Shown here: piece by piece, positions 500-25,021 of the stretch
Position numbering within the stretch: the stretch's first letter is position 1
How the letters are laid out: each line of letters begins with the position of its first letter
Source of the DNA: a virus
DNA: 26,149 nucleotides
Direction: 5' to 3' (one strand)
Virus record (IMG/VR): IMGVR_UViG_3300044957_000416
Location: 1-26,149 of that record
Program-made: the position numbers and the translations under genes
The notes under the pieces: generated by a model
The model's input: the letters and a program-made list of their open reading frames with translations, nothing else
Databases searched by the model: none
Told to the model about the DNA's origin: nothing

Positions 500-910
500 A
501 TGTCCTTCTTCCTGCGAAAGCCGATCACGCTCAACTCTCTTCGCGCGGTGCTCGCCGCTGCGGAGGTCGCCGTCAAGGGCGAGACGGCCTGCATTGACAC
601 CGCCTCGGGCGAGTTCGTCGTCGGAGCCGTCGGCACCGGCCTCGTTCCGGTGGGCACGTTCACGGAGGCGCTCACGGGCGACGGCGTCAAGACCACGCTC
701 GTCGCGACCTTCGACGAGATCCGTGCGCAGGAATGGATCAACGACACCGTCGCGCCGGTCCTCGCGACGCACCTCGGCCAGACCGTCTACATCAAGGACG
801 GTCGCACCGTGACGATCACCTCGGCGGGACACAGCAAGGCCGGGACGTTCCTCGGCTTCGACACCAACGGGCGGTGCATGGTCGCGCCGCGTCCCTTCTT
901 CACGGCCTGA
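500..910 (+). CDS. Putative capsid decoration/stabilisation protein
   Basis: 136 aa, immediately upstream of the major capsid gene, where Mu-like phages often place a small head decoration or stabilisation protein. The sequence is rich in short beta-type segments with no membrane or signal segment. Its N-terminal part (RKPITLNSLRAVL, then CIDTASGEF, GTFTEALTGDG and VYIKDGRTVT) reappears almost colinearly as the first ~130 residues of the large adsorption protein at 14646, which starts RKPITINGLCAVL and keeps CIDTATGQF, GTFTEALVGDG and VYIKDARTVT. A purine-rich GAGAGG sits about 10 nt before the ATG. The decoration role is inferred from position and size; no catalytic motif is visible. Confidence 0.55.
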   Translation: MSFFLRKPITLNSLRAVLAAAEVAVKGETACIDTASGEFVVGAVGTGLVPVGTFTEALTGDGVKTTLVATFDEIRAQEWINDTVAPVLATHLGQTVYIKDGRTVTITSAGHSKAGTFLGFDTNGRCMVAPRPFFTA

Positions 911-963: not shown

Positions 964-2046
964 ATGGATAGCGTCGAGCTGCAGTCGGTCGTGATCACTC
1001 TCGAAGAGTCGATGTCGATCGCGATGATCACCGACTACCAGCGCGCGATGCGCTCGGAGAACATCTGGTGGCCGTCGATCGCTCGCCCGCGCGACATCAG
1101 CTCGCGCAAGGAGACGATCCACTGGCTGCTCGACTCCGCGAAGATCGAGCCGCGCGACATCGGACAGATCGCATTCGAGGACATGAGCACGGTCGACCTC
1201 GTCGTCGAGCCGAAGTTCGCGTCGAGCGGCCTTGAGATCGGCATCGAGGCGTTCCAAGACCTCGAGAACGGCGTGTGGGGAGGCCGCGCGATCAACGCGG
1301 GCACGGCATGGGCGCGTCAGATCGGCGTGCAGATGGCCTACTACCCGCAATTCCGTCTCGCTGCGGCGATGCTCGGCAACCCGACGGCCTACGACGGCGT
1401 CGCCTTCTTCGCGCACGGGCACCCGACGAACCTCAACGATCCGTCGGCGGGCACGTACACGAACCTTCTTGACGCGGTCGCGGCCGACGGATGGTCCGGC
1501 GTGCTCGCGCCGATCGACTCGTCGGTCACCGTCGACGCCGCGCTCAACAACATCCAGCGCGTGCTCGCGTACATCGCGAGTCTCAAAGCCCCGAACGGCC
1601 GCGATCCGCGCTTCCTGCGGCCGATCGGGATCCTCGTGCCGCCCGCGCTCACGGTGCGAGCGCAGCAACTCACGAACGCGCGGTTCATCGCGCAGGCCGC
1701 GGGCGCGACGGGCGGTGGCTCCGGCGACATCGAAGCCGTGGTCCGCAACTGGGGCATGGGCGATCCGCTCGTCGCCGCGGAGCTGGGCGCGGGCTTCTCG
1801 TACTCGTACCAAGGCGGGCCGAACGTCGCGGGCTCCGATCGCGACTACTACATCATCTGCGAGACGCAGGACGTCGAAGTCTCCGGGTTCATCTACGGCC
1901 GACGCGAGGCGTTCAACGTCATCTACCACGACCTCGCCTCGAGCGCGGAGCTCGCGCGCAAGGGCAAGCTGCAGTGGGTCTGCCGTGGCCGCAACGAGAT
2001 CGTGCCGGGCCTGCCCTACACGATCTTCAAGGTCAAGGGCGTCTGA
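964..2046 (+). CDS. Major capsid protein, Mu gpT-like
   Basis: 360 aa, the size of Mu gpT-type major head subunits. Recognisable family pattern: an N-terminal helical region with SARP-like WWPSIARPRD, then FEDMSTVDLVVEPKFASSG, GIEAFQDLENG, the long helix AINAGTAWARQIGVQM, then the segment VAFFAHGHPTN followed by DPSAGTYTN, which matches the gpT pattern in which an F(F/L)xxxHP segment precedes an asparagine-rich loop. The C-terminus has FIYGRREAFNVIY. It forms the icosahedral shell with the protease and decoration protein upstream. The start is well defined by AGGAG seven bases before ATG. The gene is followed by two hairpins, consistent with high-level, separately terminated expression. Confidence 0.8.
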   Translation: MDSVELQSVVITLEESMSIAMITDYQRAMRSENIWWPSIARPRDISSRKETIHWLLDSAKIEPRDIGQIAFEDMSTVDLVVEPKFASSGLEIGIEAFQDLENGVWGGRAINAGTAWARQIGVQMAYYPQFRLAAAMLGNPTAYDGVAFFAHGHPTNLNDPSAGTYTNLLDAVAADGWSGVLAPIDSSVTVDAALNNIQRVLAYIASLKAPNGRDPRFLRPIGILVPPALTVRAQQLTNARFIAQAAGATGGGSGDIEAVVRNWGMGDPLVAAELGAGFSYSYQGGPNVAGSDRDYYIICETQDVEVSGFIYGRREAFNVIYHDLASSAELARKGKLQWVCRGRNEIVPGLPYTIFKVKGV

Positions 2047-10977: not shown

Positions 10978-12147
10978 ATGCCCACGCTCGCAGAGCTGAC
11001 GACGCCCCTCACGCGGACCGAGATCGAGGCCGCGATCTACTCCGCGATCGAGGCGCTCGGCGTCAAAACGACGTCGTGGAAGCCGGGAGCCATCGCGCGC
11101 ACGATCATCGCGGGCACCGCGATCGTGCTCGCGGCGTTCTCGACGCTGCAGGCGCGCATCGCCGAGTCGGGGTTCCTCGAGCTGGCCGCGGGCGACTGGC
11201 TCACGATCGTCGCGCGCGAGGTCTACGGCGTCGAGCGGAGTAACGGCACGTTCGCCGCGGGCAACGTGACGTTGACGAACACGGGAGGCGGTCTCTTCAC
11301 GCCTGGAATCGGCGACGTGATCTTTCTCAACTCGACGACGGGCAAGACCTACCGCAACACCGCGGCGTTCGTGCTCAACCCGTTCCAGGTCGGGCTCGTC
11401 GTTCCGGTCGAGGCGATCGAGATCGGCGCGGACTCGACCGCAGCGCCCACCGACATCGACGACTTCGTGACAGTGCTGCTCGCCGTCACCGTCACGAACC
11501 CCAACGCGCTCGTCGGACAAGACCCCGAGACCGACGCCGCGCTTCGCGAGCGGTGCCTCGCAAAGACAGGCGTGCTCTCGCCGAACGGCCCCGCCGACGC
11601 CTACCGCTTCCTCGCGCTCTCCGCGGTCACGACAGGCGGCACGCCTGCGGGCGTCACGCGCGTTCGCACCGTGCCCGATGGTGCGGGCAACGTGCTCGTG
11701 ATCCTCGCGACGGCGTCCGGCCCGGTGACGGGCATCATCGGCGACCCGTCGACGCCGCTCGGAGCTGCTAACGAGGCAATCCAGACTCAATGCGTTCCGC
11801 TCGCCGTCACCGCGACGGTGCAGAGCGCGGTCGCTTCGACGATCGCGGTGACCTACTCGCTGTGGGTCAAGAATACGATCGGGCTCACGGTCTCGCAGAT
11901 TCAGACGCAGGTCGCGACCGCGCTCGCGGTGTTCCTGTCGACGCAGCCGATCTCGGGCTCGCGCAAGGTGCCCGGTCCCGGCTTCGTGTTCGTCGAGCAA
12001 CTCGAGGGCGTGATCGCCGAGGCCGTCGGCGCGTCGTTCCTCGTCGACGTGCAGGTCACCGTGCCCGCGGCTAACGTCGCGATCGCGAGCAACGGCGCGC
12101 CCGTGCTCGGCACCGTCACCCCGACCGTCACCGTGGTCGCGCCATGA
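10978..12147 (+). CDS. Baseplate J-like protein (Mu gp47-like)
   Basis: 389 aa from ATG 10978, close to the ~360-390 aa of the family. The N-terminus has an amphipathic TEIEAAIYSAIEALG helix; then ELAAGDWLTIVAREVYGVER, the 'G.wL...a...yg..R' motif of baseplate J proteins. The central strands (GNVTLTNTGGGLFT) precede LVGQDPETDAALRERCLAKTG, the diagnostic 'G.d.Etd..lR.R' motif, and LSAVTTGG. The C-terminal half has repeated beta segments. It bridges hub and outer wedge. Overlaps the next gene by 4 bp. Confidence 0.8.
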   Translation: MPTLAELTTPLTRTEIEAAIYSAIEALGVKTTSWKPGAIARTIIAGTAIVLAAFSTLQARIAESGFLELAAGDWLTIVAREVYGVERSNGTFAAGNVTLTNTGGGLFTPGIGDVIFLNSTTGKTYRNTAAFVLNPFQVGLVVPVEAIEIGADSTAAPTDIDDFVTVLLAVTVTNPNALVGQDPETDAALRERCLAKTGVLSPNGPADAYRFLALSAVTTGGTPAGVTRVRTVPDGAGNVLVILATASGPVTGIIGDPSTPLGAANEAIQTQCVPLAVTATVQSAVASTIAVTYSLWVKNTIGLTVSQIQTQVATALAVFLSTQPISGSRKVPGPGFVFVEQLEGVIAEAVGASFLVDVQVTVPAANVAIASNGAPVLGTVTPTVTVVAP

Positions 12148-12985: not shown

Positions 12986-13669
12986 GTGCCGCAGAACATC
13001 ACCGACGTCTCGACCTTCACCGCGCCGGTCGTCGCGCCTGCGGACGGCGATCCGCTGAACGCTGCCTCGATCACGGCACCGGGCGTCGGGCTGCAGGCGC
13101 TCGCAAACCGCACGCGCTTCCTCGGGAACCGCATGGGCGTCGGGCTCGCACCGCCGCTCACCGACGAGTTTCTCTACAACCCCACGATCGCGCGCGCTCT
13201 CCCGATCTCGGGCATGGAGTTCGCGCTCTCGACCGACGCGGGCGGGGTCTCCGAATGGCTGCGCAACCTCTCGGGAGGCGTCGTCTACCAAAACCCGCTC
13301 GCGAACGCGGTGTTCGCGAGCGCGCGCGTGCGCGTGCCGAGCGGCTCGACGATCACCGGGTGCGAGGTGCTCGTGCGCTCGAGCGGCGTGCGAACGCCGG
13401 GGAATGGCTGGTTCGCGAAGCTCTATTCGCAGACCGAGCCGTGGGGTGCGCCCGCTGCACCGAGCGCCGTGCAGCAAGGAAGCACGGAAGAGGGCGGTCT
13501 CTCCGCTGGCTACAGCGTGATCGCGATCGGCTCGATCACGCCGTTCCTGATCGTCGCTGGCGAGTCGGCGCACATCATCGTCACCGGGCCGACAGGCGCG
13601 CTCGGTGCGAACGATCAGCTTCTCGCGGCCCGCGTCCTCTTTAACGATCGCGGCCCGCGCAACGCATGA
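12986..13669 (+). CDS. Tail-fibre-like adsorption protein (collar/fibre adaptor)
   Basis: 227 aa from GTG 12986. The N-terminal region has TFTAPVVAPADGDPLNAAS followed by LQALANRTRFL, a pattern found at the head of many phage fibre proteins, where it carries the helix that starts trimer formation. The remaining ~160 residues are Gly/Ser-rich strands (SGGVVYQNP, SGSTITGCEVL, GESAHIIVTGP) compatible with a beta-prism or jelly-roll receptor-contacting part. No enzymatic motif is visible. It is the first of three adsorption proteins. Confidence 0.5.
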   Translation: MPQNITDVSTFTAPVVAPADGDPLNAASITAPGVGLQALANRTRFLGNRMGVGLAPPLTDEFLYNPTIARALPISGMEFALSTDAGGVSEWLRNLSGGVVYQNPLANAVFASARVRVPSGSTITGCEVLVRSSGVRTPGNGWFAKLYSQTEPWGAPAAPSAVQQGSTEEGGLSAGYSVIAIGSITPFLIVAGESAHIIVTGPTGALGANDQLLAARVLFNDRGPRNA

Positions 13670-13678
13670 GGCTCGAGC

Positions 13679-14635
13679 ATGGCGCGCACTGTCGACCAAC
13701 TACCTCCGGCCCTCGTCGTCAACCCGACTGACCGGCTGCTCGTCTCGCAGGCGGGCATCGCGAAGCGAGCCGATCAGTCGCAGGTTGCGGCCGGAGGTGC
13801 GGGGATCACGCAGCTCACGGGCGACGTGCTCGCTGGCCCCGGCGCGGGCGCGCAGGCCGCGTCGGTCGTGAAGGTGCAGGGCTTTCCGTGGGACACGACC
13901 GCACCCGCACCGGGCGACGTGCCGACGTGGGACGGCGCGCAGTACACGCCGCAGCAGCCGTACATACCTCCGACCAGCCCCTTCATTTCGCAGACGTTCA
14001 CGGGGGCCACGGGGACGCTCGTCGTCGGCACCGGAGGCGGGATGGTGCGCTCCATTCCGCCTCCGGGTGGACAGGTGCTCACGCTGCCTCCGGCGACGGA
14101 CGGGCTCGTGTTCTTCGTCGCGAAGGCTGCCGGAGCTGCAGGCGACGGGATCTCTCTCGCGCCAGACGGCTCAGACACGATCGAATACTTGAACGCCAAC
14201 TTCGAGCTCCCCGGCTCGCTGCGCCTCGTGTTCGGCGCAGGGGTACGGAGCCGGACGATCGGCTGGGTCGTGTTCGTCAACGGATCGAACAATTGGGCCG
14301 TGTTGTCGGTCGACTCGGGTTTGCCGATCTACCACTACGCGGCGAACGACACGCTGCCCGACTTCCAAGACATGACCGTCACCGTGGATCTGTCGGCGGG
14401 CTCGTTCTCGCTGGCTCTGCCGACGAGCGCGTCTGTCACGAACGCGGGCCGTCGCATCCGTGTGATCCAGTCGGTGTTCCCGTCGTTCGTCGACTCGCTC
14501 ACGCTCACGCGCGTTCCGGGCATCCTGATCAACGGCGTCAACGCCGATCTCGTGTTCTTTCCGGGCAGCCCCTTCTCCGCGATCGAGCTAATCCAGCTCC
14601 TGACCGGCGACTGGTGGGCCAACATCACCTACTGA
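13679..14635 (+). CDS. Tail fibre protein
   Basis: 318 aa from ATG 13679, GAGG upstream. The N-terminal third carries the fibre motif QLTGDVLAGPGAGAQAASVV then GDVPTWDGAQYTPQ, which is widespread among phage tail fibres. The rest is beta-rich and ends with a conserved hydrophobic tip (FSAIELIQLLTGDWWANI). Pro/Ser-rich linkers separate the domains. Probable host-range determinant; no chaperone gene follows it. It is coupled to the 504-aa protein 10 bp downstream. Confidence 0.55.
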   Translation: MARTVDQLPPALVVNPTDRLLVSQAGIAKRADQSQVAAGGAGITQLTGDVLAGPGAGAQAASVVKVQGFPWDTTAPAPGDVPTWDGAQYTPQQPYIPPTSPFISQTFTGATGTLVVGTGGGMVRSIPPPGGQVLTLPPATDGLVFFVAKAAGAAGDGISLAPDGSDTIEYLNANFELPGSLRLVFGAGVRSRTIGWVVFVNGSNNWAVLSVDSGLPIYHYAANDTLPDFQDMTVTVDLSAGSFSLALPTSASVTNAGRRIRVIQSVFPSFVDSLTLTRVPGILINGVNADLVFFPGSPFSAIELIQLLTGDWWANITY

Positions 14636-14645
14636 GGGCGTCACG

Positions 14646-16160
14646 ATGTTCGTTCGCAAGCCGATCACGATCAACGGACTTTGCGCGGTGCTCGACGCGG
14701 GCGAGGTCGCGCGCGTCGGGGAGCTCGCGTGCATCGACACCGCGACGGGCCAGTTCAAGGCGGGCATCGCGGGCCTCGCGTCGCTGCAGCCCTTCGGAAC
14801 CTTCACCGAGGCGCTCGTCGGTGACGGCGCGCGAAAGACCTACGTCGCCGCGTTCTCCGAGATCACGGCGTTCGCGTGGCTGAACGACACGATCGCGCCG
14901 GTCACGATGCCCGCAGACCGCGGCGCGCTCGTGTACATCAAGGATGCGCGCACGGTGACCGCGGACTCGGGAGGCGGCGCGAACGCGGTCGCGGGCGTCG
15001 CGATCGACATCGACGTCGGCGGGCGTGTGCTCGTGCAGAGCCCGATCGGGTTCGCGAGCAGCGGCTCGGGATCGGGAGCTGCAGCCGGGGAAACGCTCGT
15101 GTTCTCCGACTACGGCGCGCAAGATCCGGCGCAAGGGCGCTACACGAGCTGGGCCGATCTGTACGCGGCAGCGTTGGCCGGATCCGGCCCGATCCGCATC
15201 GCGTTCGATCAATTCGACATCAACATCCCGATCGTCATTCCGGGTGCCGCGTGGGTGTTCCCCGTCGAGCGCCGGATGACGTGGGAATCGCTGTGGGGGC
15301 TCGGACGTCCCACGACCGTCGTCCTCGACGACGGCTGCGTGATTCACGACCTCAACGTCGTCGGCGTCGGCCTGTACCTCTTAGGCGACTCGTCCTCGCC
15401 CAGCCTTGCGTTCTCACCGACCGGAGGGGCGAACGTGCTGCTCGTCCAGGGACCGGGCTCCGCGATTGCCAATCTCGGCACCTCTCCGATGATCGAATGG
15501 TCGGTCGACAATAGCGTTCAGCTGCTCATCATCGCGCTTCAACAAGGCGCGATCTCGAGCCTCGGGGCAGGCGCTCCGGTGCTTCACGTCAAGCCGACAG
15601 ATGGCGACACCGCATTCGTGGCTCTCTTCGCCTTCGACGGCTCGCTTGTCGAGCCCGACACGATCTCGGACGACGACAGACGCGGCACCGCGATGTGCCC
15701 CATTACCATGAACGGCGAGGCGTTCGTTGCGTTCGATCAGCCTCAATGGACCGGCGCGGTTCAGTTCGGCATCAACCCGCTCACCAAGTTCCCGGTCTCG
15801 TACTCCCGGCCGAGGTTCAACATCCAGTCGAACGTGCTCGCGCCCGGACGCGGCCCCTACGTCATGGGCAACCAGATCGGGGTGTTCGACCCGTACCTCA
15901 CCGGAGAGAACGGGTCCGAGTTCGTTCGCTTCGACGGGAGCGTTCCCGGCTTCGTAGACGTCACGTTGCCCGACCCGCGCTACTGCCACGGGCAGACGTG
16001 CCTTTTCAAAGAGACACAGGGGACGAGCGGCCTGGGACAGCTGCGGCTGACCACGCCGTTCGGCGCGGTCGAGTATTTCTCTCCGACCAAGACGTTCCCG
16101 GCAGTCGGACACCTCGCGGTGCGTGTCACGAGCGACGGGGAAAACTGGTGGATCACATGA
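14646..16160 (+). CDS. Adsorption protein with decoration-like N-terminal domain
   Basis: 504 aa from ATG 14646. Residues 1-~130 are a clear duplicate of the decoration protein at 500: FVRKPITINGLCAVL, ACIDTATGQF, GTFTEALVGDG, LNDTIAPV, VYIKDARTVT. A flexible Ser/Gly linker (SSGSGSGAAAGE, near residue 140) leads to ~290 residues of beta-rich sequence resembling a beta-helix or sheet spike, and a C-terminal tip (DVTLPDPRYCHGQTCLFKE, then VGHLAVRVTSDGENWW) of a kind common in fibre ends. It may therefore sit on the capsid as a head fibre or reuse the domain as a tail anchor. The domain sharing is directly visible; the location on the virion is inferred. Confidence 0.6.
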   Translation: MFVRKPITINGLCAVLDAGEVARVGELACIDTATGQFKAGIAGLASLQPFGTFTEALVGDGARKTYVAAFSEITAFAWLNDTIAPVTMPADRGALVYIKDARTVTADSGGGANAVAGVAIDIDVGGRVLVQSPIGFASSGSGSGAAAGETLVFSDYGAQDPAQGRYTSWADLYAAALAGSGPIRIAFDQFDINIPIVIPGAAWVFPVERRMTWESLWGLGRPTTVVLDDGCVIHDLNVVGVGLYLLGDSSSPSLAFSPTGGANVLLVQGPGSAIANLGTSPMIEWSVDNSVQLLIIALQQGAISSLGAGAPVLHVKPTDGDTAFVALFAFDGSLVEPDTISDDDRRGTAMCPITMNGEAFVAFDQPQWTGAVQFGINPLTKFPVSYSRPRFNIQSNVLAPGRGPYVMGNQIGVFDPYLTGENGSEFVRFDGSVPGFVDVTLPDPRYCHGQTCLFKETQGTSGLGQLRLTTPFGAVEYFSPTKTFPAVGHLAVRVTSDGENWWIT

Positions 16161-16541: not shown

Positions 16542-16985
16542 GTGGACACGATCAAGACCTACCGTCACACGCTCGTCGCGCTCGCCTTCGCGGCGCTCGC
16601 GATCGTCGCGCTAGTGTTCGTCCCCGACGAGCGCCTCGACAAGCTCGTGCGTCTTGCGGAGCGCGTGATCGTCGATCCCGCGGGCGCGACCGCGTTCGTC
16701 GCCGTCATCGCTGGCGCGCTCACCACGCTTCGCGGAGCGTGGATGCGCGTGCCTCCCGCGAGCGTCGTGCTGCTGGCGCTCGCGGTCTCGACGATCACGG
16801 CCTGCGGCGCTCAGCTCACGTCGGAACAGCGCACCGCGCTCGCGATCGAAACGCAGCGGTGCGTTGTGAACGAGCGCGCGATTGTCGACCGCGTCGGAAC
16901 CACCGAAGAGCAGGACCGCGCCGATCTCGCTGCCGAGCGCGCGCGCTGCGACGCTGCTCGAGCTGCGATCACGGAGACACCATGA
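16542..16985 (+). CDS. Holin-like membrane protein with C-terminal lipoprotein part
   Basis: 147 aa from GTG 16542, preceded by GGAGG seven bases upstream. Residues 8-26 (TLVALAFAALAIVALVFV) and 46-62 (ATAFVAVIAGALTTL) are transmembrane segments, which resembles a two-span phage holin. After M68 comes a third hydrophobic stretch (SVVLLALAVSTITAC) and a lipobox-type TITAC, then a hydrophilic helix with two more cysteines (QRC, ARC). Two functions may be fused or made from separate starts. It sits two genes before the endolysin. Alternatively this is one membrane protein with no lysis role. Confidence 0.5.
   Translation: MDTIKTYRHTLVALAFAALAIVALVFVPDERLDKLVRLAERVIVDPAGATAFVAVIAGALTTLRGAWMRVPPASVVLLALAVSTITACGAQLTSEQRTALAIETQRCVVNERAIVDRVGTTEEQDRADLAAERARCDAARAAITETP
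16743..16985 (+). CDS. Internal-start lipoprotein, o-spanin-like (candidate)
   Basis: 80 aa in the same frame as the holin-like gene, from ATG 16743. GGAG lies five bases before this ATG, a textbook ribosome-binding site. The product has a basic residue, a hydrophobic core (VVLLALAVS) and a lipobox TITAC with Cys at residue 21, i.e. a type II signal peptide. The mature part is short and helical. Lipoprotein plus endolysin plus holin is a usual Gram-negative lysis set, where the outer-membrane spanin is a small lipoprotein. It is a candidate only: no inner-membrane spanin partner is certain. Confidence 0.4.
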   Translation: MRVPPASVVLLALAVSTITACGAQLTSEQRTALAIETQRCVVNERAIVDRVGTTEEQDRADLAAERARCDAARAAITETP

Positions 16986-17242
16986 GCAACGAGATCGACA
17001 CCGCGCGCAAGATCGTCGACGTCGTCGCCGAGGGCGTCAACGCGGTCACGCCGCTCATCGCTGGCGCAGCGCCGGAGGTCGCGCCCTTCGTTCCGCTCGC
17101 GCTCGGAGGCGTTCGCGCGCTGCTCTCGTTCGCGGACCAGCTCGGGCACGGCGACGCGGTGCGCGCGAGCCTCGACGCGGAGCTCGCTGCGGCGCGAGCT
17201 GCAACCGACGACGCGCTCGAGCGGAAGCACGGCGGCCGATGA
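16982..17242 (+). CDS. Small protein of the lysis region, unrecognised
   Basis: 86 aa from ATG 16982 (ATGA overlap). The middle (VAEGVNAVTPLIAGAAPEVAPFVPLALGGVRALL split here by prolines) is moderately hydrophobic and could contact membrane; the C-terminus is an Ala/Arg-rich helix ending KHGGR. It overlaps the amidase start by 4 bp. Function not recognised; position suggests a lysis accessory. Confidence 0.45.
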   Translation: MSNEIDTARKIVDVVAEGVNAVTPLIAGAAPEVAPFVPLALGGVRALLSFADQLGHGDAVRASLDAELAAARAATDDALERKHGGR

Positions 17243-17904
17243 CTGCGTCGCTCAAGGTGCCCGCAGGCGTCACGCTCGTCGACTGGCGCTCGCAGGCCGA
17301 CTACCGCGGCCTCATGGCGGGCAACGGCAAGTCGGCGCGCGCGCTCTTCCGGGCCGGGAAGGTCGTCATGCGGCCACCGGCCGACGTCGTCGGGATCATG
17401 TGGCACGTCACCGCGTGCCTCTTCGGCGTGTCGCCCGCGGCCGTCCGCGAGGCCGGAGGCGACGCGAAGCTCGCGCGCGATCGTCGGGCTCTTCGCATCC
17501 CGGCGCACGCGACCGTCTTTCGCGACGGGCACGTCGTCGTTCCGTTCGATCTGCTCGCGTACCTCTGGCACGGCAACGGGGGCAACGCGGCGTCTCTCGG
17601 GGTCGAGATCGAGAGCGACGACGGATCGATCACGCCCGAGCAGGTCATCGCGTGTCGATGGCTCGCGCGCTGGTTCGTCGCCGAGGCCCGCAAGGTCGGC
17701 GCGACGATCCGAGAGACGTGGGCGCACCGGCAGACGAACGGCATCAAGCCCAACGACCCCGGCCCCGTCGTGTGGCGCGAGGTCGCGATCCCGTCGAGCG
17801 AAGAGCTTGGCCTGACCCGCACGATCCGCGGACTTCCGGGCAGCACGCCCGCGGTCAAGCATGGGCTCCCGATCCCGCTTGCCTGGGATCCGCTGGGGAC
17901 GTGA
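17239..17904 (+). CDS. Endolysin: N-acetylmuramoyl-L-alanine amidase (PGRP/AmpD-like)
   Basis: 221 aa from ATG 17239 (ATGA overlap). Amidase_2 pattern: IMWHVTAC with His56, YLWHGNGGNAASLGVEIE with His111 and the usual GIE-like strand, then WAHRQTNGIKPNDPGPVVW with His163 and Asp173. His56, His163 and Asp173 are the probable zinc ligands, as in AmpD-type enzymes that cut the bond between MurNAc and L-Ala in peptidoglycan. No signal peptide is visible, so release would depend on the holin. A later exported protein (17906) may act with it. The fold is confidently recognised; the exact cut is family knowledge. Confidence 0.75.
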   Translation: MTASLKVPAGVTLVDWRSQADYRGLMAGNGKSARALFRAGKVVMRPPADVVGIMWHVTACLFGVSPAAVREAGGDAKLARDRRALRIPAHATVFRDGHVVVPFDLLAYLWHGNGGNAASLGVEIESDDGSITPEQVIACRWLARWFVAEARKVGATIRETWAHRQTNGIKPNDPGPVVWREVAIPSSEELGLTRTIRGLPGSTPAVKHGLPIPLAWDPLGT

Positions 17905-17905
17905 C

Positions 17906-18604
17906 GTGCGCCCGTCGAGGATGCCCCAGGAAGGCCTGGGGCTCGGTCGCCGTGTGAGCGGAGGTCCAGGGAGCTCGAGGGCCGTAGAACGCCTCGGAGG
18001 GGCCGTAGCGGCCCTCGTTTTCGCGCTCGGGATCGCGGTCGCGCGGCCCCGTGCCGTCGTGGGGCAGGACGAGCCCCCATGGTCGTTCGACTCGGACGCG
18101 CTCGCGCTCGCGCGGATCTGCCGTCACGAGGCCGGTTTCCCTCCGCGTCGAGGGCGCGGCGCGCGTGCGTGGTGGGACTTCGGCGACGACTGCCCCGCGA
18201 TCTTCGCTGTGCTCGAGCGCGTGCGAGCTGCGATGGAAGCGCACCGCGATCGTCTCGTCTCGCTCCCCGAGGCCGTGCACGCCTACTCGCGAGGCCGGAT
18301 CTACGACCGCTCGCGCACCGATGGCTCGTGCGACGTCGCGTGGCTCGACGAGTCGGGCGACGAGCCCGCGTGCTGGCGAGGCTCGATCCCGTGGTCTCGT
18401 CGACGCGATGCGTGGCTCGCGGTCCTCGAGCACGCGCGCGCGATCGTCGCGCGGCAGGTCACGGATCGATGCGACGCCCCTCCGCTGCACTGGGGCTGCG
18501 GGGAAGTGCAGACGGCGCGCGGGTGCCGCGACCACGAACGAGCCGCGCGAGCCGGATGGTCGCGCGTCTCGTGCGGTCGCACCGACAATTGGTTCTATCG
18601 TTGA
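17906..18604 (+). CDS. Exported protein, putative second cell-wall hydrolase
   Basis: 232 aa if GTG 17906 is the start. Other in-frame starts are ATG 17861, ATG 17921 and GTG 17954; the last gives the tidiest signal peptide, with hydrophobic core VAALVFALGIAVA and a probable cut near residues AVVGQ. The mature part has LARICRHEAGF with a Glu in a 'rEag' setting, CPAIFAVLERV, a Tyr/Ser/Arg segment (AYSRGRIYDRS), and Cys-rich WGCG and TDNWFY motifs. The opening resembles SleB-like hydrolases or transglycosylases with a catalytic Glu, but I cannot name the family. Its 5' end lies in a dispersed repeat. It converges with the leftward operon (10-bp overlap of 3' ends). Confidence 0.5.
   Translation: MRPSRMPQEGLGLGRRVSGGPGSSRAVERLGGAVAALVFALGIAVARPRAVVGQDEPPWSFDSDALALARICRHEAGFPPRRGRGARAWWDFGDDCPAIFAVLERVRAAMEAHRDRLVSLPEAVHAYSRGRIYDRSRTDGSCDVAWLDESGDEPACWRGSIPWSRRRDAWLAVLEHARAIVARQVTDRCDAPPLHWGCGEVQTARGCRDHERAARAGWSRVSCGRTDNWFYR
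17923..18004 (+). repeat. Dispersed repeat copy C at the 5' end of the exported-protein gene
   Basis: Shares with the copy at 26011 the blocks GGAAGGCCT, GAGCGGAGGTC and GGGCCGTAGA followed by GCCTCGGAG and GGCC. In the reading frame of the gene it encodes SRAVERLGGA, close to the repeat peptide PVEELGEA in copy A2. It lies upstream of the signal-peptide core. Confidence 0.5.
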
Positions 18605-18948
18605 CGGTGCCGCTTGACCTTGGCGAGCGCCTCGACGAGCGCGGCCTCGGCCTCTGCGGCGATCTTGTGGCCTCCCGCGGCGCGATGGTACGCGCGCGCC
18701 GCGTCGACGAGGTCGTCGAGCAACTCGACAAGCGCGTCGCGCTCGGCGCGTACCCGGCCGACATCGGCGCGGGCAATCCCGAGCGACTCTGCATCGAGCC
18801 CGCCGATCGCGCGCGCGTCGTCGCGCTCGCGCTCGAGCGTCGCGGCGCGCTGCTCCGCGTCGTTCGCGCGCGTCGCGTGTCGGTTGAGCTGCAGTCCGTA
18901 CCACTCCGCGTCCTTCCCGCACTGAGGGCAGACCTCGCGCGCGTTCAC
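18595..18948 (-). CDS. Coiled-coil protein with a CxxC motif, unrecognised
   Basis: 117 aa from GTG 18948 on the minus strand (GTGA overlap with the upstream gene). The N-terminus has VCPQCGKDAEWYG, a single CxxC knuckle that could bind zinc with other ligands. Residues 25-115 are a long charged helix rich in Glu, Arg and Ala (DAEQRAATLERERDDAR), so a coiled coil is likely. It is the last gene of the leftward early operon and its stop overlaps the end of the convergent hydrolase gene by 10 bp. No family recognised. Confidence 0.5.
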   Translation of the reverse strand: MNAREVCPQCGKDAEWYGLQLNRHATRANDAEQRAATLERERDDARAIGGLDAESLGIARADVGRVRAERDALVELLDDLVDAARAYHRAAGGHKIAAEAEAALVEALAKVKRHRQR

Positions 18949-19613
18949 GCCGGCACCTCGAGACGCGCGTCGATCTCTGCGAGGTACGCGGAGAAGCGGT
19001 GGCGGGCGATGTGCCACGGAGAAAGCTCGCTCGCTCGCAGTCGATCTCGCAGAAGCGACGTCGGCACCTCGTGCGAGCCGGACAGGCGATCGCACGGCGC
19101 GATGGTCGGCGCGTACTCTGGAAGCTGCCAGTCGCGCGGCTCCGTCGTCGCGAAGAGGTCGCGCCGCTCGATCGCGAGAGCAACGAGATCGGCGCGTCGC
19201 ACAAGCGACGGAGTCGCCGACGCGAGCCCGAGCGCCTTGCGGACCACGCGATCGATCTCCGCGCACACGCGCTCCCACCGATCGACGACCTCGCGCGGAT
19301 CGTCGTCGGGGCCGCGGAACGCGCTCTTCAACGGCGACGTGAGATCGCCGTAGTAGGCCTCGGGCGCGTCGTGCAGCAGCCCCTCGCGCACGATCGCGGG
19401 CGGCGCTCCCCAGCTCGCGAGCAGATCGGCCACCAGCATCGAGTGATGCGCGACGGAGTAGGGCTCCCCCGCGGTGTGTCCGTTGAACCTGGCGATCCTC
19501 GAGAGCGAGTGCGCGATGTCGCCCACGTTGACGTCCTCGACGCGAGGCTCGCAGAGCTCGAACGCGATGCCCGAGACGGTCTGCACCCACGGCTTCGTGA
19601 TCTCGTAGTTCAT
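18945..19613 (-). CDS. HD-domain phosphohydrolase (YfbR-like)
   Basis: 222 aa from ATG 19613 (minus). Residues 52-92 hold the HD signature: YSVAHHSMLVADLL (His56-57), then LLHDAPEAYYGDLTSPLK with the His81-Asp82 pair and Glu85, and Asp142 in RRADLVALAIERRD. This is the metal-binding set of HD-superfamily phosphohydrolases of the YfbR (5'-deoxynucleotidase) type, which hydrolyse deoxynucleoside monophosphates. Phages use such enzymes to reshape dNTP pools. Gene overlaps its neighbours by 4 bp. Substrate cannot be read from sequence; a signalling-nucleotide substrate is an alternative. Confidence 0.65.
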   Translation of the reverse strand: MNYEITKPWVQTVSGIAFELCEPRVEDVNVGDIAHSLSRIARFNGHTAGEPYSVAHHSMLVADLLASWGAPPAIVREGLLHDAPEAYYGDLTSPLKSAFRGPDDDPREVVDRWERVCAEIDRVVRKALGLASATPSLVRRADLVALAIERRDLFATTEPRDWQLPEYAPTIAPCDRLSGSHEVPTSLLRDRLRASELSPWHIARHRFSAYLAEIDARLEVPA

Positions 19614-20683
19614 GCGTCGGGATCCTCTCCGCGCGCGATCGCGGCCGCGCGCCGCTGCTGCTCGAGCGCCTCGGCGGGCGCGTGATCGGTGAACACAGAC
19701 GGCCCCGCTTCGTTGATGGGCGCGGAGGCCTTCGCGGCAGCCTTCGCTGCGGCTGCCACCTTCGCGGCCTTCGTGCTCGGCGCGGGCTTCTCGTCGCTCG
19801 ACGAGGCGCTTGCGGTCTTGCGCTGCTCGTCGAGAAGCTCGCGGATCGTGGTCTCGCCGGAGCGGATCGCGGAGAACCATCGACGCAGCGTGCCAAGCTG
19901 CGCGGGCGACACCGCGTCGAGCGAGGCACCAAGCGCCTCCGCGAGCTGCGCCGGCATCACGCCGATCTCTGCGAACGCATCGAGGATCTTCCGCTTCGCG
20001 GCCTGCGGATCTTGCGCGTCCTCTTTCCGCAGCGTGGCGCGCGTGCGGTCGAGCGCCTCGTCGACGAGGTCTCCGGGCACGAGCCGGAGGATCAGCGTGC
20101 GCATCGCGCGGCTCACGAGCCCGTTGTGCTTTGCGAGCAGGTCCGCATCGTTCGCGCGGATGATGTAGACCGAGTGCCCCTGCGAGGTCACGCGCGTCCC
20201 GATCACGTCGTCGCTCGGCTTCGCGTTTTTGCGCTCGACCGTCTTCTCGACGCTCACGTCTTGCGAGTAGGTCGCGTTGCTCTCAAGGTCGGTCACCGTG
20301 CAGCGCACGAGGCGCGCGGTCGCATCCTCGAACGTGACCACGCTCTCGATCGCGAGGTTGCCGAAGTGCCGCGCGAGCCCCTCCGCGAACCGGATGCTCG
20401 GGCCGGTGATCGTCTTGCCCGCGCGAGGGAGCTCGTACTCTGCGGCCTCCGCGAAGCGCGGGCGATCGCACTCGCGGAGGATCTTGATCCGCGCGGTGTC
20501 CTCGTCGCGCGGCTGGTGTCGCGCCATCACGAAGCGCGCCTCGACGTTCGCGCGCGCCATCGCGGCCGCTGCGCTCGACGAGGTCTCCCCGCTCTTCGTG
20601 AGGCTCGTGCCTCCCGCGCCGTCCGTGCGCGTCATGCCTGCGCCGACCTCGCCGCGTCTCTCGATCTCGTGTCCTTCGCTCAT
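19610..20683 (-). CDS. Putative phage recombination (single-strand annealing type) protein
   Basis: 357 aa from ATG 20683 (minus), followed by an Ala/Lys-rich C-terminal tail (KAAKVAAAAKAAAKA). The conserved block is RFAEAAEYELP, then GPSIRFAEGLARHFGN, then a CTVTDLESNATYSQDV segment: a family that phages encode beside YqaJ-type exonucleases. Here the exonuclease gene is two genes upstream in the same operon, which supports a two-component exonuclease/annealing system for recombination-dependent replication. I recognise the pattern but not a named family. Not RecT, Erf or Rad52 by any motif I can see. Confidence 0.5.
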   Translation of the reverse strand: MSEGHEIERRGEVGAGMTRTDGAGGTSLTKSGETSSSAAAAMARANVEARFVMARHQPRDEDTARIKILRECDRPRFAEAAEYELPRAGKTITGPSIRFAEGLARHFGNLAIESVVTFEDATARLVRCTVTDLESNATYSQDVSVEKTVERKNAKPSDDVIGTRVTSQGHSVYIIRANDADLLAKHNGLVSRAMRTLILRLVPGDLVDEALDRTRATLRKEDAQDPQAAKRKILDAFAEIGVMPAQLAEALGASLDAVSPAQLGTLRRWFSAIRSGETTIRELLDEQRKTASASSSDEKPAPSTKAAKVAAAAKAAAKASAPINEAGPSVFTDHAPAEALEQQRRAAAIARGEDPDA

Positions 20684-20687
20684 GTTC

Positions 20688-20897
20688 TCACCCGTTCTCG
20701 CGGAACCAGTCCGCGGCCTTCTCGATCACTCCCGCCAACGTCTCCGCTTCGACCACGACCCCGTCGCTTGCGCGGCGCACGAGCGCAAGGGGCCAGCACA
20801 CGATCGTCCAGTCATGCACTCCGCCAAGCGGGTGCTCGAGGTGCCACCGATCGCGGTGCGACGCCAGCAACGCGAGGTCTGCGTCGATGTCGCTCAT
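20688..20897 (-). CDS. Small protein of the early operon, unrecognised
   Basis: 69 aa from ATG 20897 (minus), between the exonuclease and the recombination-protein gene, overlapping the former by 4 bp. Trp-containing and amphipathic (HRDRWHLEHPLGGVHDWTIVCWPLAL), with a C-terminal helix (GVIEKAADWFREN). Soluble; function unknown, possibly a regulator of its neighbours. Confidence 0.5.
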   Translation of the reverse strand: MSDIDADLALLASHRDRWHLEHPLGGVHDWTIVCWPLALVRRASDGVVVEAETLAGVIEKAADWFRENG

Positions 20898-21964
20898 CGC
20901 TTCTTGAACCTCACGTCGAGCACGCGGCTCGACGTCGTTGTCGTGTACTTCGCGATCAGGTCGCGCACAATCGCCGCGCCGATGTCGCCGAAGCGCGCCT
21001 CGAGCGAGGCGCTCAGCTCATCGGCGACGAGCTTCCAGTCGGTTCGCGATCGCGTCCGCGACGACCAAGACGCCTTGCCCCACGCGCCGCGGTAGCCCTC
21101 GACGTTGCCGAGCATCGCGCAGAGCTGCGCGGCGACGAGGTCGCGTCGCTCCTCTGCGAGCTTCACGCCCTCGCGCGCGACGTCGTAGTCGCTCGCGAGC
21201 AGCGCAACCTCGGGCGGCGCGTCGAGCAGCCCGCGATCCGGGCGCGCGTACACGCGGGCGAGCGTGTCGAGGTCGCGCTCGGTTGGCATTGGTGCCTCGT
21301 CGACGTCGACGTGCGCGGCCCACCACGGGCCAAAGGCCTCGAGCAGCGCCTCGAGCAGCGCCTCGTCGATCTCGACCTCGTACACGCGGCGATCGGTGCC
21401 GATGTCCGCGGCGACGTGCGCGACCGGCGCGGCCCACCCGTAGACCTCGCGCACGGTGAGCGTCTGCCAATGAACCTGGCAGAGAACGTGCTCGGGTAGG
21501 CCGTCCGCGCCCGCGTCCTCTGGACCCCACGCGTGCGCTCCACCGCTGCCAACGTACTTCGCCTCGACGACGATCGGGCCGTACCGCGCATGTCGCGCGA
21601 TCGCGTCGGGCGTCGCGCCTCGTCGAGAGTCGCGAGGCGAGAGCAGCGTTCCGGGGCCTGGGTGCTCGACGTGCTCGACGAGCCCGTGCCGCGTCACGCG
21701 CCTTCGGTAGCCAGCGATCACCGCGGCCTCGTGATCGTTGCCCGCTTCCATCGCCATCGAAGGCAACGGCGCGGCGCGACCCGTCGCCGAGGCCCACACG
21801 TCGAGCGGCGTGCGAAACGGGTCGACGCCGATGATCGCCGCGATGTCACTCGCGCCGCAGTAGCCCACGCGCGCGATCGTCGGCGCGCTCTGCGCGGGCG
21901 CGCCATGGGGCTTCGCGAGCTGGCGCGCGATCGTCGCGTCGTCGAGGCTCAGGTCGTCGCTCAC
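20894..21964 (-). CDS. YqaJ-like viral exonuclease
   Basis: 356 aa from GTG 21964 (minus). Pattern of the YqaJ/lambda exonuclease superfamily: YCGASDIAAIIGVDPF at ~35-50, AGNDHEAAV with Glu79, ATPD with Asp120, then IVVEAKYVGS with the Glu134-x-Lys136 pair, and QVHWQT with Gln163. The D...ExK...Q set forms the metal-binding nuclease centre that digests one strand of a duplex end. A C-terminal half of ~190 residues has coiled-coil character. The neighbouring annealing-type protein completes the pair. Confidence 0.75.
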   Translation of the reverse strand: MSDDLSLDDATIARQLAKPHGAPAQSAPTIARVGYCGASDIAAIIGVDPFRTPLDVWASATGRAAPLPSMAMEAGNDHEAAVIAGYRRRVTRHGLVEHVEHPGPGTLLSPRDSRRGATPDAIARHARYGPIVVEAKYVGSGGAHAWGPEDAGADGLPEHVLCQVHWQTLTVREVYGWAAPVAHVAADIGTDRRVYEVEIDEALLEALLEAFGPWWAAHVDVDEAPMPTERDLDTLARVYARPDRGLLDAPPEVALLASDYDVAREGVKLAEERRDLVAAQLCAMLGNVEGYRGAWGKASWSSRTRSRTDWKLVADELSASLEARFGDIGAAIVRDLIAKYTTTTSSRVLDVRFKKR

Positions 21965-22173
21965 GCCGCGCTCTCGATCTCGGTGACGGCCGCGAACACC
22001 TCGATCAGCGCCGCCTCAAGCGCGGGGCCGGAGCCGCGCGCCTCGTGCCCCTTCGACGTGATCGCTACCGCGACCCATTCGCCTCGAGGCGGGCGCTCGA
22101 CGGTGAGCCGTTGGAGCTCGAACGCCGAGATCGCGTTCGCGAGGTCGAGCACGAGAGGTCCGGGCGCGCTCAC
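21961..22173 (-). CDS. Small early protein, unrecognised
   Basis: 70 aa from GTG 22173 (minus), with 4-bp overlaps to both neighbours, so translationally coupled. The sequence has a compact alternating pattern (LVLDLANAISAFELQRLTVE, then EWVAVAITSKGHEARG, then a C-terminal helix AALIEVFAAVTEIE), like a small alpha/beta fold. A longer reading upstream would overlap the next gene out of frame and is not supported. Confidence 0.5.
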   Translation of the reverse strand: MSAPGPLVLDLANAISAFELQRLTVERPPRGEWVAVAITSKGHEARGSGPALEAALIEVFAAVTEIESAA

Positions 22174-22400
22174 TTCGACGGCTCCTCGAGCGCGGCGAGC
22201 GCGAGTTCGTGTTTCTCCCACGACGCAAACACGGCCTCGACCGCGTCCGCGTCCGTCGCGCGCTCGTCCGCGTTCGCGAGCGGCACGAGCGCGAGCTGCG
22301 CGCGACGCAACGGCAACCACTTGCGAAGCGCCGCCATCGCCCTCGCGCGCTCACGCGCTTCGGCCTTGTCCACAACCCTCGTCGCTGCATCGAGCTTCAT
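22170..22400 (-). CDS. Small early protein, first gene of the leftward operon
   Basis: 76 aa from ATG 22400 (minus), with GAGGTGCGG just upstream as ribosome-binding site. A longer version from 22451 would begin inside the putative promoter region, so it is less likely. The protein is helical and charged (KAEARERARAMAALRKWLPL), with no membrane segment. It starts the operon that carries the exonuclease. Function unknown; a small DNA-associated or regulatory protein is possible. Confidence 0.5.
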   Translation of the reverse strand: MKLDAATRVVDKAEARERARAMAALRKWLPLRRAQLALVPLANADERATDADAVEAVFASWEKHELALAALEEPSK

Positions 22401-22495
22401 CACCGCACCTCCGACCTCGCTTCTGCCACGCGCCGGTAAGCAAGTCAACAAATCTTACTTGACCTCGCACGAGCCCACGCGCACTCTCGGCGCTC
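22401..22495. promoter_or_regulatory. Divergent early promoter/operator region
   Basis: 95 bp between the leftward and rightward early operons, noticeably AT-richer at its centre. GTCAA (22444-22448) and TTGAC (22459-22463) form an inverted pair 10 bp apart, and each is a -35-like TTGAC for one direction: TTGACC rightward, TTGACT leftward. A second inverted pair is GTAAG (22436-22440) and CTTAC (22454-22458). The -10 boxes are weak (CAGAAG leftward; none clear rightward). The RHH gene begins at 22496, so it may regulate this region. Confidence 0.5.
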
Positions 22496-22651
22496 ATGGA
22501 GAACGATGATTCGCTGACGATCAAACTGCCGCGCGATCTTCGCCGCTGGCTTCGCGTGCAGGCCGCTGTGCGCGAGGTGTCGGTGAGCGCGCTCGTGCGC
22601 GAGCTGCTTGAGGCTGCTCGAGCGACGACGAAGAAAGGGGCTCGCCGATGA
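22496..22651 (+). CDS. Ribbon-helix-helix (CopG/Arc-type) DNA-binding protein
   Basis: 51 aa from ATG 22496. Reads ENDDSLTIKLPRDLRRWL, then a second helix with SVSALVRELLEAAR: the ribbon (LTIKLP), helix A and helix B of a small CopG/Arc repressor. It is the first gene of the rightward operon and lies directly beside the divergent intergene with paired repeats, so autoregulation or an early-switch role is plausible. The next start overlaps its stop by 4 bp (ATGA). No ligand-binding part. Confidence 0.65.
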   Translation: MENDDSLTIKLPRDLRRWLRVQAAVREVSVSALVRELLEAARATTKKGARR

Positions 22652-22812
22652 ACGACGACGACGGCTTTCGCACCGATCGCACCTACTCGACGCCGGTCTA
22701 CCGGCACGGCTTCTATGTGAAGTCGCACCGCTGGTACTACGACGAGTGCGGCAGCCCCGTGCCGCTCGACGACGACGGCCCGGGCTTCGACGACGACGAC
22801 GAGGACGAGTGA
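22648..22812 (+). CDS. Acidic small protein, unrecognised
   Basis: 54 aa from ATG 22648 (ATGA overlap with the RHH gene). Aromatic core (YSTPVYRHGFYVKSHRWYY) followed by a strongly acidic tail ending FDDDDEDE. The tail could mimic DNA or bind a basic partner, but that is speculation. The methyltransferase ATG overlaps its stop. Confidence 0.45.
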   Translation: MNDDDGFRTDRTYSTPVYRHGFYVKSHRWYYDECGSPVPLDDDGPGFDDDDEDE

Positions 22813-23552
22813 TGTTCTCGGCCCGACACGGCGACGCGCTCGACTGGCTGCGGTCGCTTGACGACGAGAGCGTCGATCTCTGCGTCTCCGATCCGGCCTA
22901 CGCATCGCTCGAGAAGCACCGCGCGCGGGGCACCACGACGCGCCTCAAGGTAAGCGAGGGCTCGTCGAACGCGTGGTTTGACATCGTGCCGAACAGCTAC
23001 TTCGGCCCGCTGTTCGCCGAGCTGCATCGCGTGCTCGTGCGCGACGCCCACTGTTACATCCTCTGCGACCAAGAGACCGCCTTCGATGTCGTGAAGCCGT
23101 GCGCGATCGCCGCGGGCTTTCAGTGGTGGAAGGCGCTCGTGTGGGACAAGCAGACGATCGGGATGGGCTACCACTACCGCTCGCGGTTCGAGCACGTCTG
23201 CTTCCTCGAGAAAGGCAAGCGCAGGCTCTCGGATCTCGGCGTGCCCGACGTGCTCGACTTCCCGCGCGTGCGCGACGGGTACCCGACCGAGAAGCCCGTC
23301 GAGCTCTTGCGCGTGCTCGTCACGCAGAGCAGCGAACCGGGCGAGCTGGTGATCGACCCCTTCATGGGCTCGGCGTCGTGCGGCGAGGCCGCGCTTCTCG
23401 AGGGTCGAAGGTTCGCAGGCGTCGATCTCTCACCCGACGCTGTCGCGCAGTCGCGCGCGCGACTTCGTCGCTTCGGACAAGAGGCCGACATCATCACACC
23501 GAGGCGTCGACGCTCGCTCTTCGACGAGCTTCCGAAAGGCAAGGGACCGTGA
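22812..23552 (+). CDS. DNA adenine/cytosine-N4 methyltransferase, beta-class
   Basis: 246 aa from ATG 22812. Motif IV reads VSDPAY (Asp27 to Tyr30), where DPPY is usual; motif I comes later as DPFMGSASCGEAALLEGRRFAGVDL split at residues ~182-206; TEKPVELL lies between. Motif IV before motif I marks the beta class of N6-adenine/N4-cytosine methyltransferases. No restriction partner is visible, so it is probably an orphan used for self-protection or regulation. The Pro-to-Ala change in the catalytic motif is unusual and may alter activity. It sits with RusA and the replication genes. Confidence 0.7.
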   Translation: MFSARHGDALDWLRSLDDESVDLCVSDPAYASLEKHRARGTTTRLKVSEGSSNAWFDIVPNSYFGPLFAELHRVLVRDAHCYILCDQETAFDVVKPCAIAAGFQWWKALVWDKQTIGMGYHYRSRFEHVCFLEKGKRRLSDLGVPDVLDFPRVRDGYPTEKPVELLRVLVTQSSEPGELVIDPFMGSASCGEAALLEGRRFAGVDLSPDAVAQSRARLRRFGQEADIITPRRRRSLFDELPKGKGP

Positions 23553-24070
23553 CCGCTCCGCTTCTGCTCTTCACCGTTCCGATCGTCGCATCGTGGCAAC
23601 GCATGCGCGTCGGGAAGGGTCGCCACTACAAGGCACCCGAGCAGCGCGAGCTGCAGAACCTGATCGCGATCCACGCGATCCGCGCGCGCAACGTGTGGTC
23701 GCAGACCTCGCGATCGTGGGATCCGACCGCGCGCTTCGCGCTCACGATCGCGTACCACGCGCCGGACATGCGACGGCGCGACGTCGACCGCGTCGAGTCG
23801 CTCGTGCTCGACGCGCTCACGGGAACCATCTGGCTCGACGACTCCGACCGCTACGTCGTCGACGCGCGCACGGTGCGATGCGACGCCGAGGGCCGCGCGC
23901 TCGTGCACATCGGCTCCGGCGAAGCCACGACGCACCGCGTCGCAACCGTCCCCGAGGGCTCGACCTACATCATCGTCGAGCGCGTCGGGGATCCGCTCCC
24001 GGCCCCGAAGCGGTCTCGCTCGGTCGCGACGCGTCGCTCGACGTCGCGCGCGGTCACAGTCCGGCGTTGA
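23549..24070 (+). CDS. RusA-like Holliday-junction resolvase
   Basis: 173 aa from GTG 23549 (GTGA overlap). Diagnostic stretch MRRRDVDRVESLVLDAL (Asp78, Asp80, Asp88) then TIWLDDSDRYVV (Asp97, Asp98): the acidic residues that in RusA coordinate metal and cut Holliday junctions. N-terminal FTVPIVASWQRMRVG is also typical. The C-terminal ~40 residues are a basic extension (PAPKRSRSVATRRSTSR) that may hold DNA. Its operon neighbours (methyltransferase, initiator, loader) fit recombination/replication. Confidence 0.7.
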   Translation: MTAPLLLFTVPIVASWQRMRVGKGRHYKAPEQRELQNLIAIHAIRARNVWSQTSRSWDPTARFALTIAYHAPDMRRRDVDRVESLVLDALTGTIWLDDSDRYVVDARTVRCDAEGRALVHIGSGEATTHRVATVPEGSTYIIVERVGDPLPAPKRSRSVATRRSTSRAVTVRR

Positions 24071-24106
24071 CATGTCACGTTACCGCGTGACATGGTGCGT
24101 GACATG
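24071..24106 (+). promoter_or_regulatory. Operator-like inverted and direct repeats at the initiator start
   Basis: CATGTCACG (24071-24079) and CGTGACATG (24086-24094) form a perfect 9-bp inverted repeat with a 6-bp spacer. CGTGACATG occurs again at 24098-24106, 12 bp after the previous copy. The array runs across the possible ATG starts at 24092 and 24104. Its core CGTGACA also occurs in the internal repeat cluster at 24497 in the opposite orientation. Confidence 0.6.
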
Positions 24107-25021
24107 ACGGGATACACCAAGCTCTTTGGGTCGATCTTGCGGTCCACCGTGTGGCGCGCGCCCGCGCACGTCCGGCTCGTGTGGATCGCGCTGCTCGCGC
24201 TGGCCGACCGCGACGGGGAGGTCGACGCCTCGATCCCCGGCCTCGCGGACGCCGCGGGCGTGGAGCTCGAACAGTGCGAAGAGGCGCTCGCGGTGTTCCT
24301 CGCGCCCGACCGCTACAGCCGGACGCCGGACCACGAGGGCCGTCGCATCGAGAAGATCGACGGGGGATGGCGGTTGCTCAACCACGCGAAGTATCAGCAG
24401 CGGCTCGGCCTCGAGGAACGCCGACAACGCGATCGCGAGCGGCAGGCGAGGCACCGCGCCGCGGTGAAATCGCGAGAAACCTCGGCAGAAGCCCCCCTGT
24501 CACGCCCTGTCACAGCCGGTCACACGGAATCCGACACGCAGACGCAGCTGCAGACGCAGACGCAGACGGAACCCTCTCCCAAGCGAGAGGGTTCCTCGCG
24601 TGCGCGCGCGCGCGCGACGGGCGGGGTCGACGAGCCGGAACCGCGCCCGAGCCCCGTGCTCGACGAGGCCCGTCGAGCGGAGGCCGCACGCGCACGCCTC
24701 GCGCCGATCTGGCGAGAGCGAACCGGCGCGACCCCGCTCGAGCTGTCGGCGCTCACGCCTCGGGCCGAGATCGTCGCTCAGCTCGCGGGCCTCCCCGACG
24801 AGCCCCAGCTGAGCGCGGCCGTCGGGCGCTTCTTCGACGACGAGGCGATGCGCCGCAAGGGATGGCCCGTCGCGTGGTTCCTTCGCAACCCCGCTCAGTG
24901 GACCGGGCGCGGAGGTGCCAAGGGCGGGCACGCGCCCGCGCGCAAGGGCTCCGACTACGAAGCTCGCGAGATGAGCTTCGAGCAACTCATGCAAGAGAGC
25001 GAGGGTAAAGCCAATGGGTGA
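24104..25021 (+). CDS. Replication initiator protein (phage O-like)
   Basis: 305 aa from ATG 24104; an ATG four codons earlier (24092) is also possible. Residues 1-100 resemble the N-terminal winged-helix domain of phage replication proteins: GYTKLFGSILRSTVW, then RLVWIALLALADRDGEV, SIPGLADAAGV, then EGRRIEKIDGGWRLLNHAKY. Residues 105-195 form a disordered, repeat-rich linker, and the rest a C-terminal helicase-loader interaction part (AQLAGLPDEPQLSAAVGRFF, WPVAWFLRNPAQW). It is followed by a DnaC-like loader, as in lambda O/P. An origin-like repeat cluster lies within its linker DNA. The stop overlaps the loader by 8 bp. Confidence 0.7.
   Translation: MTGYTKLFGSILRSTVWRAPAHVRLVWIALLALADRDGEVDASIPGLADAAGVELEQCEEALAVFLAPDRYSRTPDHEGRRIEKIDGGWRLLNHAKYQQRLGLEERRQRDRERQARHRAAVKSRETSAEAPLSRPVTAGHTESDTQTQLQTQTQTEPSPKREGSSRARARATGGVDEPEPRPSPVLDEARRAEAARARLAPIWRERTGATPLELSALTPRAEIVAQLAGLPDEPQLSAAVGRFFDDEAMRRKGWPVAWFLRNPAQWTGRGGAKGGHAPARKGSDYEAREMSFEQLMQESEGKANG
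24497..24595 (+). other. Candidate replication origin inside the initiator gene
   Basis: Three GTCAC-core direct repeats at exact 10-bp spacing (CTGTCAC at 24497 and 24507, CGGTCAC at 24517), then a hexamer array CAGACG in five units (24539-24568; the second is CAGCTG), then a perfect inverted repeat with 11-bp arms: 24568-24578 against 24585-24595, loop CCAAGC. The array codes the TQTQLQTQTQT linker. Lambda's origin also lies within gene O in the linker part. The core matches the operator-like repeats at the gene's start. Function is an inference; the repeats are directly visible. Confidence 0.55.

Follow-up and report, generated by a model that had tools for sequence, protein, structure and literature searches.

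The head fibre protein gp8.5 of phage phi29 binds the shell through a decoration-type (beta-tulip) base at its N-terminus, and its C-terminal part is a projecting spike (PMC7602432). T4 Hoc and T5 pb10 are likewise shell-bound, with outward domains thought to contact the host (PMC7602432), although these domains are Ig-like. In the contractile-tailed Agrobacterium phage 7-7-1, head fibres make the first contact with the host (PMC12796354). As for decoration proteins that carry no fibre, mass spectrometry detected ORF h of phage PaMx73 in virions purified on CsCl, and the authors, who modelled it as gpD-like, proposed a decoration role for it (PMC4378225).

In this work, we analyzed a stretch of DNA of 26,149 nucleotides from an uncultured phage (IMG/VR record IMGVR_UViG_3300044957_000416; "the window" denotes this stretch at its full length) that encodes a 136-aa protein (P0001) and a 504-aa protein (P0002) with a common N-terminal domain. 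Read from sequence alone, P0002 may share the layout of gp8.5, with a domain at residues 1-131, a linker at residues 137-149 and a body of 355 residues, and the gp8.5 base (PDB 6qyy) is among the best PDB matches of the models of both window proteins. The phi29 protein, however, carries a spike that is helical and supercoiled, and no paralogue in bare form is described for it (PMC7602432), whereas in the window a bare paralogue is present, the body reads beta-rich and is unrelated in sequence, and the shell is of the gpT type. ORF h of PaMx73 and its D3112-group counterparts belong to the same phrog_1731 family and occupy the same head position between the protease and the major head gene, but ORF h has 132 aa and is without a fibre body. 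Soc, the second decoration protein of T4, differs in fold from Hoc, whereas the two proteins of the window share their presumed docking domain. The fibres of 7-7-1 leave from the pentamer centres and their protein was not identified; the likeness to P0002 drawn here is one of presumed function. The union of a decoration base and a spike in one protein (gp8.5) and bare decoration proteins of the phrog_1731 family (PaMx73) were already known; new is that one genome holds two genes for the same docking domain, a bare one and, in the tail cluster, an apparently fibre-bearing one. We found no precedent for such a pair in the open-access literature. It is seen in one contig; two independent assemblies reach no further than window bases 10,809 and 9,733, short of the tail cluster.

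Results

Two copies of one domain in the window

The features considered are the following, in window coordinates.

500..910, + strand: 136-aa bare capsid decoration protein of the phrog_1731 family, P0001 (phrog_1731 E 2.4e-11; protease and capsid flanks; AlphaFold2 fold)
964..2046, + strand: gpT-like major capsid protein, to which the domain presumably docks (PF10124 Mu-like_gpT E 1.7e-12; phrog_371 major head protein)
10978..12147, + strand: baseplate J-like protein, which marks the tail/baseplate cluster (PF04865 E 5.2e-17; phrog_6 E 5.1e-34)
12986..14635, + strand: two genes of 227 aa and 318 aa, presumed to encode tail fibres, directly before P0002 (by position only; order as in L039)
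14646..15038, + strand: second decoration domain, P0002 residues 1-131 (55% identity; phrog_1731 E 3.9e-7; L012 sister; pLDDT)
15054..15092, + strand: Ser/Gly/Ala linker, P0002 residues 137-149 (read from the sequence; pLDDT below 60)
15093..16160, + strand: fibre-like C-terminal body and tip, P0002 residues 150-504 (without detectable relatives; model unreliable)

Both open reading frames are present, P0001 at 500-910 and P0002 at 14646-16160. In BLASTP, residues 1-130 of P0002 align colinearly with P0001 with 71 of 130 positions identical (55%), three short gaps and E 2e-33, and on this alignment the likeness is far beyond chance. A sequence-only reading of the window had described such a near-colinear match over about 130 residues, followed by a Ser/Gly linker; both descriptions hold, and all the shared motifs that it quoted were found in the two copies. 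A tblastn search of the whole 26,149-base record placed the P0001 domain at exactly two sites, 500-910 and the open reading frame at 14646. Between the copies, dN amounts to 0.46 and dS to about 1.0, a high DNA divergence that indicates an old or imported pair and not a fresh duplication. A recent tandem-type duplication was ruled out, since synonymous divergence is close to one change per site and the P0002 domain groups with the decoration protein of another viral record, L012, instead of with the bare protein of its own genome.

Both copies match phrog_1731 ("virion structural protein", head and packaging), P0002 over residues 16-129. The gene of P0001 is flanked by a head maturation protease (phrog_53), seen in L002 (the same phage, independently assembled and extending further upstream), and by the gpT-type capsid gene (PF10124). 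The protease-capsid position is also taken by a family member in a Pannonibacter plasmid prophage and in D3112-group Pseudomonas phages; ORF h of PaMx73 (phrog_1731 E 1.1e-56) is encoded between the protease and the major head gene, and Myxococcus phage Mx4 encodes a phrog_1731 protein as well. The gene of P0002 lies outside this interval, downstream of the baseplate and tail-fibre genes, and its product was therefore classed as a domain-carrying protein and not as a standard decoration protein. When its N-terminal domain was compared with Pfam and PHROGs, phrog_1731 was the only match, and no known baseplate-attachment family was found.

Related Casadabanviruses differ at the protease-capsid position, as PaMx73 (L057) has a phrog_1731 gene before the capsid gene and JBD30 (L054) is without any gene there. 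The shell of JBD30 bears a different protein, the minor capsid protein gp39 (PMC11445458). The gp39 gene lies downstream of the capsid gene; gp39 was discarded as a candidate homologue, because in JBD30 the protease directly precedes the capsid gene and a phrog_1731 gene is missing. Elsewhere in the window (16882-25736), an amidase, a YqaJ-type recombinase, a DNA methylase and an IstB-like ATPase are encoded beside the contractile-tail, gpT-type virion module, and no Mu-type transposase was noticed in the window.

Predicted fold

The sequence-only reading had proposed structure prediction of both copies as a check; the AlphaFold2 models of P0001 (pLDDT 85.6) and of the P0002 N-terminal domain (pLDDT mostly 92-97 across residues 11-130) show the same nine strands in the same order. 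The top 15 PDB matches of the P0001 model in Foldseek all came from entries on phage or virus heads; most were decoration proteins, with phi29 gp8.5 among the matches, and matches 2-10 of the P0002 model were the same set. Leading the decoration matches of both models were phiCD508, Pam3, the phi29 gp8.5 base, HFTV1, T1, YSD1, SHP and lambda gpD. These matches are weak for both models (E 0.007 or weaker, TM-score at most 0.48 by target length) and, with E-values above 0.001 and low TM-scores, the models make it likely, though unproven, that the domain belongs to the gpD/SHP/gp8.5 (beta-tulip) decoration fold class. A search of the PDB by sequence gave no credible match. Some fold matches in BFVD were long proteins named tail fibre-like, collagen-type or major tropism determinant N-terminal domain; with TM-scores near 0.3, they were kept only as a hint of a role in the tail, considered below.

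Kinship of the second copy

In the domain tree, the P0002 copy is sister to the decoration protein of L012 (support 99/95), a record whose capsid protein is 92% identical to that of the window, and P0001 falls outside this pair. A family HMM built without these three sequences gave the P0002 domain 83.1 bits, the L012 protein 83.4 and P0001 111.8, and 32 of 58 consensus positions were matched by the P0002 domain against 30 and 31 by the other two. By the first two scores and the consensus matches, the P0002 copy looks as decoration-like as a genuine capsid-locus protein. Its branch is nevertheless the longest of the trio (0.51 vs 0.23 and 0.19), suggesting that some constraint may have changed. 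At informative sites, the L012 protein sides with P0001 over roughly the first 85 residues and with P0002 from there on (best split, p 0.0012; 2 of 500 permutations were as good), and this shift of allegiance along the gene suggests that decoration domains have recombined within a single pool.

Bare and extended relatives

Searching with aligned capsid and domain sequences as well as with the baseplate J protein, we gathered 34 other viral records, several of which are fragments. One copy of the domain was found in 31 of the 34 and two copies in none, the eight records of at least 40 kb included; the pair, for which the sequence-only reading had proposed a profile search in other phages, has no second case in this set. 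Similarly, the 118 isolate phage records matching the family member of L036 contained 118 places, one each, in a tblastn search of a kind that would overlook strongly diverged second copies.

At the capsid locus, some 20 phages have a short protein of about 133-149 aa and nine have an extended one. Complete extended forms occur in L005 (325 aa), L010 (344 aa), L022 (248 aa), L023 (244 aa), L024 (244 aa), L027 (246 aa) and L040 (247 aa), and partial ones, cut at the contig edge, in L035 and L052; a collagen-like TGPTGA linker is present in L005, L010 and L035. The C-terminal bodies form three groups without cross-matches (L005/L035/L052, L010/L013 and L022/L023/L024/L027/L040), all of them found solely on capsid-locus proteins and in no other gene of the loci examined. 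L013, whose capsid protein is 68% identical to that of the window, has lost the domain to the contig edge, and its pre-capsid gene ends in a body of the L010 type (49% identity over 77 residues). With several unrelated bodies on one docking domain, the latter looks like a socket for exchangeable bodies in this lineage. The body of P0002 resembles none of these capsid-locus extensions.

Three further observations were made in these records. The short capsid-locus decoration protein of L043 (225-671; also L051, 1501-1947) has one collagen-like stretch, GPRGPQGEPGA, at its end, which would fit a fibre that was lost or that starts in another frame. In L012 (6818-9200), a 2.4-kb insert absent from the window directly follows the capsid gene and holds genes of 143, 276, 234 and 107 aa; the 234-aa product contains repeats of the type VEVQAASTATLSDISSATAF and is perhaps another head appendage. 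At the start of the viral contig L010 (44-383), a conserved repeat (44 bases in the alignment) occurs five times with a spacing of 73-75 bases and forms a CRISPR-like array, in or beside the phage and just before a portal-like gene.

The body of P0002

Residues 150-504 of P0002 matched nothing in Pfam, PHROGs or the PDB sequences, nor, with tblastn, in isolate phages up to E 10. Searches with tblastn of isolate phages with P0001 and P0002, and of plasmids with P0001, were without result, as were an exact-peptide scan of viral contigs for P0002 and two bacterial-genome scans in which the domain alignment served as query. The AlphaFold2 model is unreliable for the body (pLDDT mostly below 50) and falls below 60 at the linker; our impression from the residues themselves is of a beta-rich, fibre-like sequence. 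By eye, the tip of P0002, the L022-type module and the neighbouring 318-aa fibre gene look alike, but the module matches neither P0002 nor the fibre gene. Homology of the tip with the C-terminal module of L022, L023, L024 and L027 was ruled out by profile comparison (probability below 1%), and homology with the 318-aa fibre gene by BLAST, which found nothing. Both presumed fibre genes (227 aa and 318 aa) were without a family match in Pfam and PHROGs. L039, with a baseplate J protein 60% identical to that of the window, shows the same gene order: J is followed by one gene and then by two more, which start much like the presumed fibre genes in the window. Among the genes after J in L039, a counterpart of P0002 is absent. 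P0002 thus looks like a gene added at the end of the fibre cluster, its start lying 10 bases after the upstream neighbour.

Discussion

Taken together, these results make it rather likely that P0002, composed of a decoration domain, a linker and a body, is a capsid-mounted (head) fibre or receptor binder, and the phage would then probably have host-binding fibres on both head and tail. This reading draws on the homology between the two copies, the phrog_1731 match of both, the detection of PaMx73 ORF h in virions, the decoration-like fold matches, the extended relatives at the capsid locus and the kinship with L012. Counting against it are the place of the gene outside the head module, after the baseplate and tail-fibre genes, the longest branch within the trio, a body unlike the capsid-locus extensions and the weak Foldseek E-values. 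The sequence-only reading had interpreted the domain as a head decoration domain and P0002 as a candidate capsid-mounted fibre, and both parts are supported by fold, synteny, the mass spectrometry of a family member, the extended capsid-locus relatives and the tree. Its further view that nothing standard predicts this pairing was too strong, as phi29 gp8.5 is known (PMC7602432) and extended forms are common in the family.

An attachment to the tail is an unlikely explanation. A decoration-type domain copied into the tail-fibre cluster would, in that case, fix a receptor binder on the baseplate or on the fibres encoded by the two adjacent genes, a reading favoured by the position of the gene directly after two presumed tail-fibre genes, by a domain branch longer than the bare ones and by the BFVD matches, at low TM-score, to long tail fibre-like and tropism-determinant proteins. 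The domain nevertheless keeps the family pattern like a capsid-locus protein (83.1 vs 83.4 bits; 32 vs 30 and 31 of 58 positions), its sister is a decoration protein beside a 92% identical capsid, and in the other records where its place was read the family member is at the capsid locus. We regard it as improbable that both copies are shell proteins but that the body of P0002 is an enzyme (e.g., a capsule or polysaccharide lyase) or a protective coat on the head instead of a receptor binder. The sequence after the linker gives the impression of a beta-helix entry and no relatives of the body were found, both in keeping with such a role, whereas no enzyme family was matched in Pfam or PHROGs and the model of the body is unreliable. 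Finally, P0002 might be a neutral product of recombination between decoration and fibre genes, with little or no expression and without a virion role. The mosaic relation of the three domains suggests recombination in the pool and the pair occurs in no other record; however, 504 codons remain open, synonymous divergence between the copies exceeds nonsynonymous divergence (dS about 1.0, dN 0.46) and the gene follows its upstream neighbour closely, which makes this explanation very improbable.

If P0002 is indeed a head fibre, its residues 1-130, a gpD/gp8.5-like domain, would bind the mature gpT-type shell at sites of the kind that the bare P0001 occupies, probably as a trimer to judge from the fold class. 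The flexible Ser/Gly linker would project the beta-rich body, whose distal tip would touch the host surface. The bare P0001 would supply most of the shell-stabilising subunits, and P0002 would be a minor, fibre-bearing variant that competes or co-assembles with it. Docking, stoichiometry, oligomeric state and receptor binding of P0002 are all inferred in this scheme. It is also conceivable, although here we are somewhat more doubtful than confident, that bare and fibre-bearing forms made from two distant genes share one set of shell sites, with the relative expression of the two copies determining how many head fibres are mounted, and that the single-gene capsid-locus forms of the relatives, bare or extended, represent states before the split.

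If the head-fibre reading is true, host-binding parts would be mountable on the phage head by reusing a shell-cement domain, and a gene annotated as a tail fibre by its position would be a head fibre. The family would then offer a natural series of bare forms, forms extended with several unrelated bodies and a form split into two genes, with the docking domain as an exchangeable socket. A second copy of a decoration domain outside the head module would, moreover, provide a simple test for head-mounted adhesins elsewhere.
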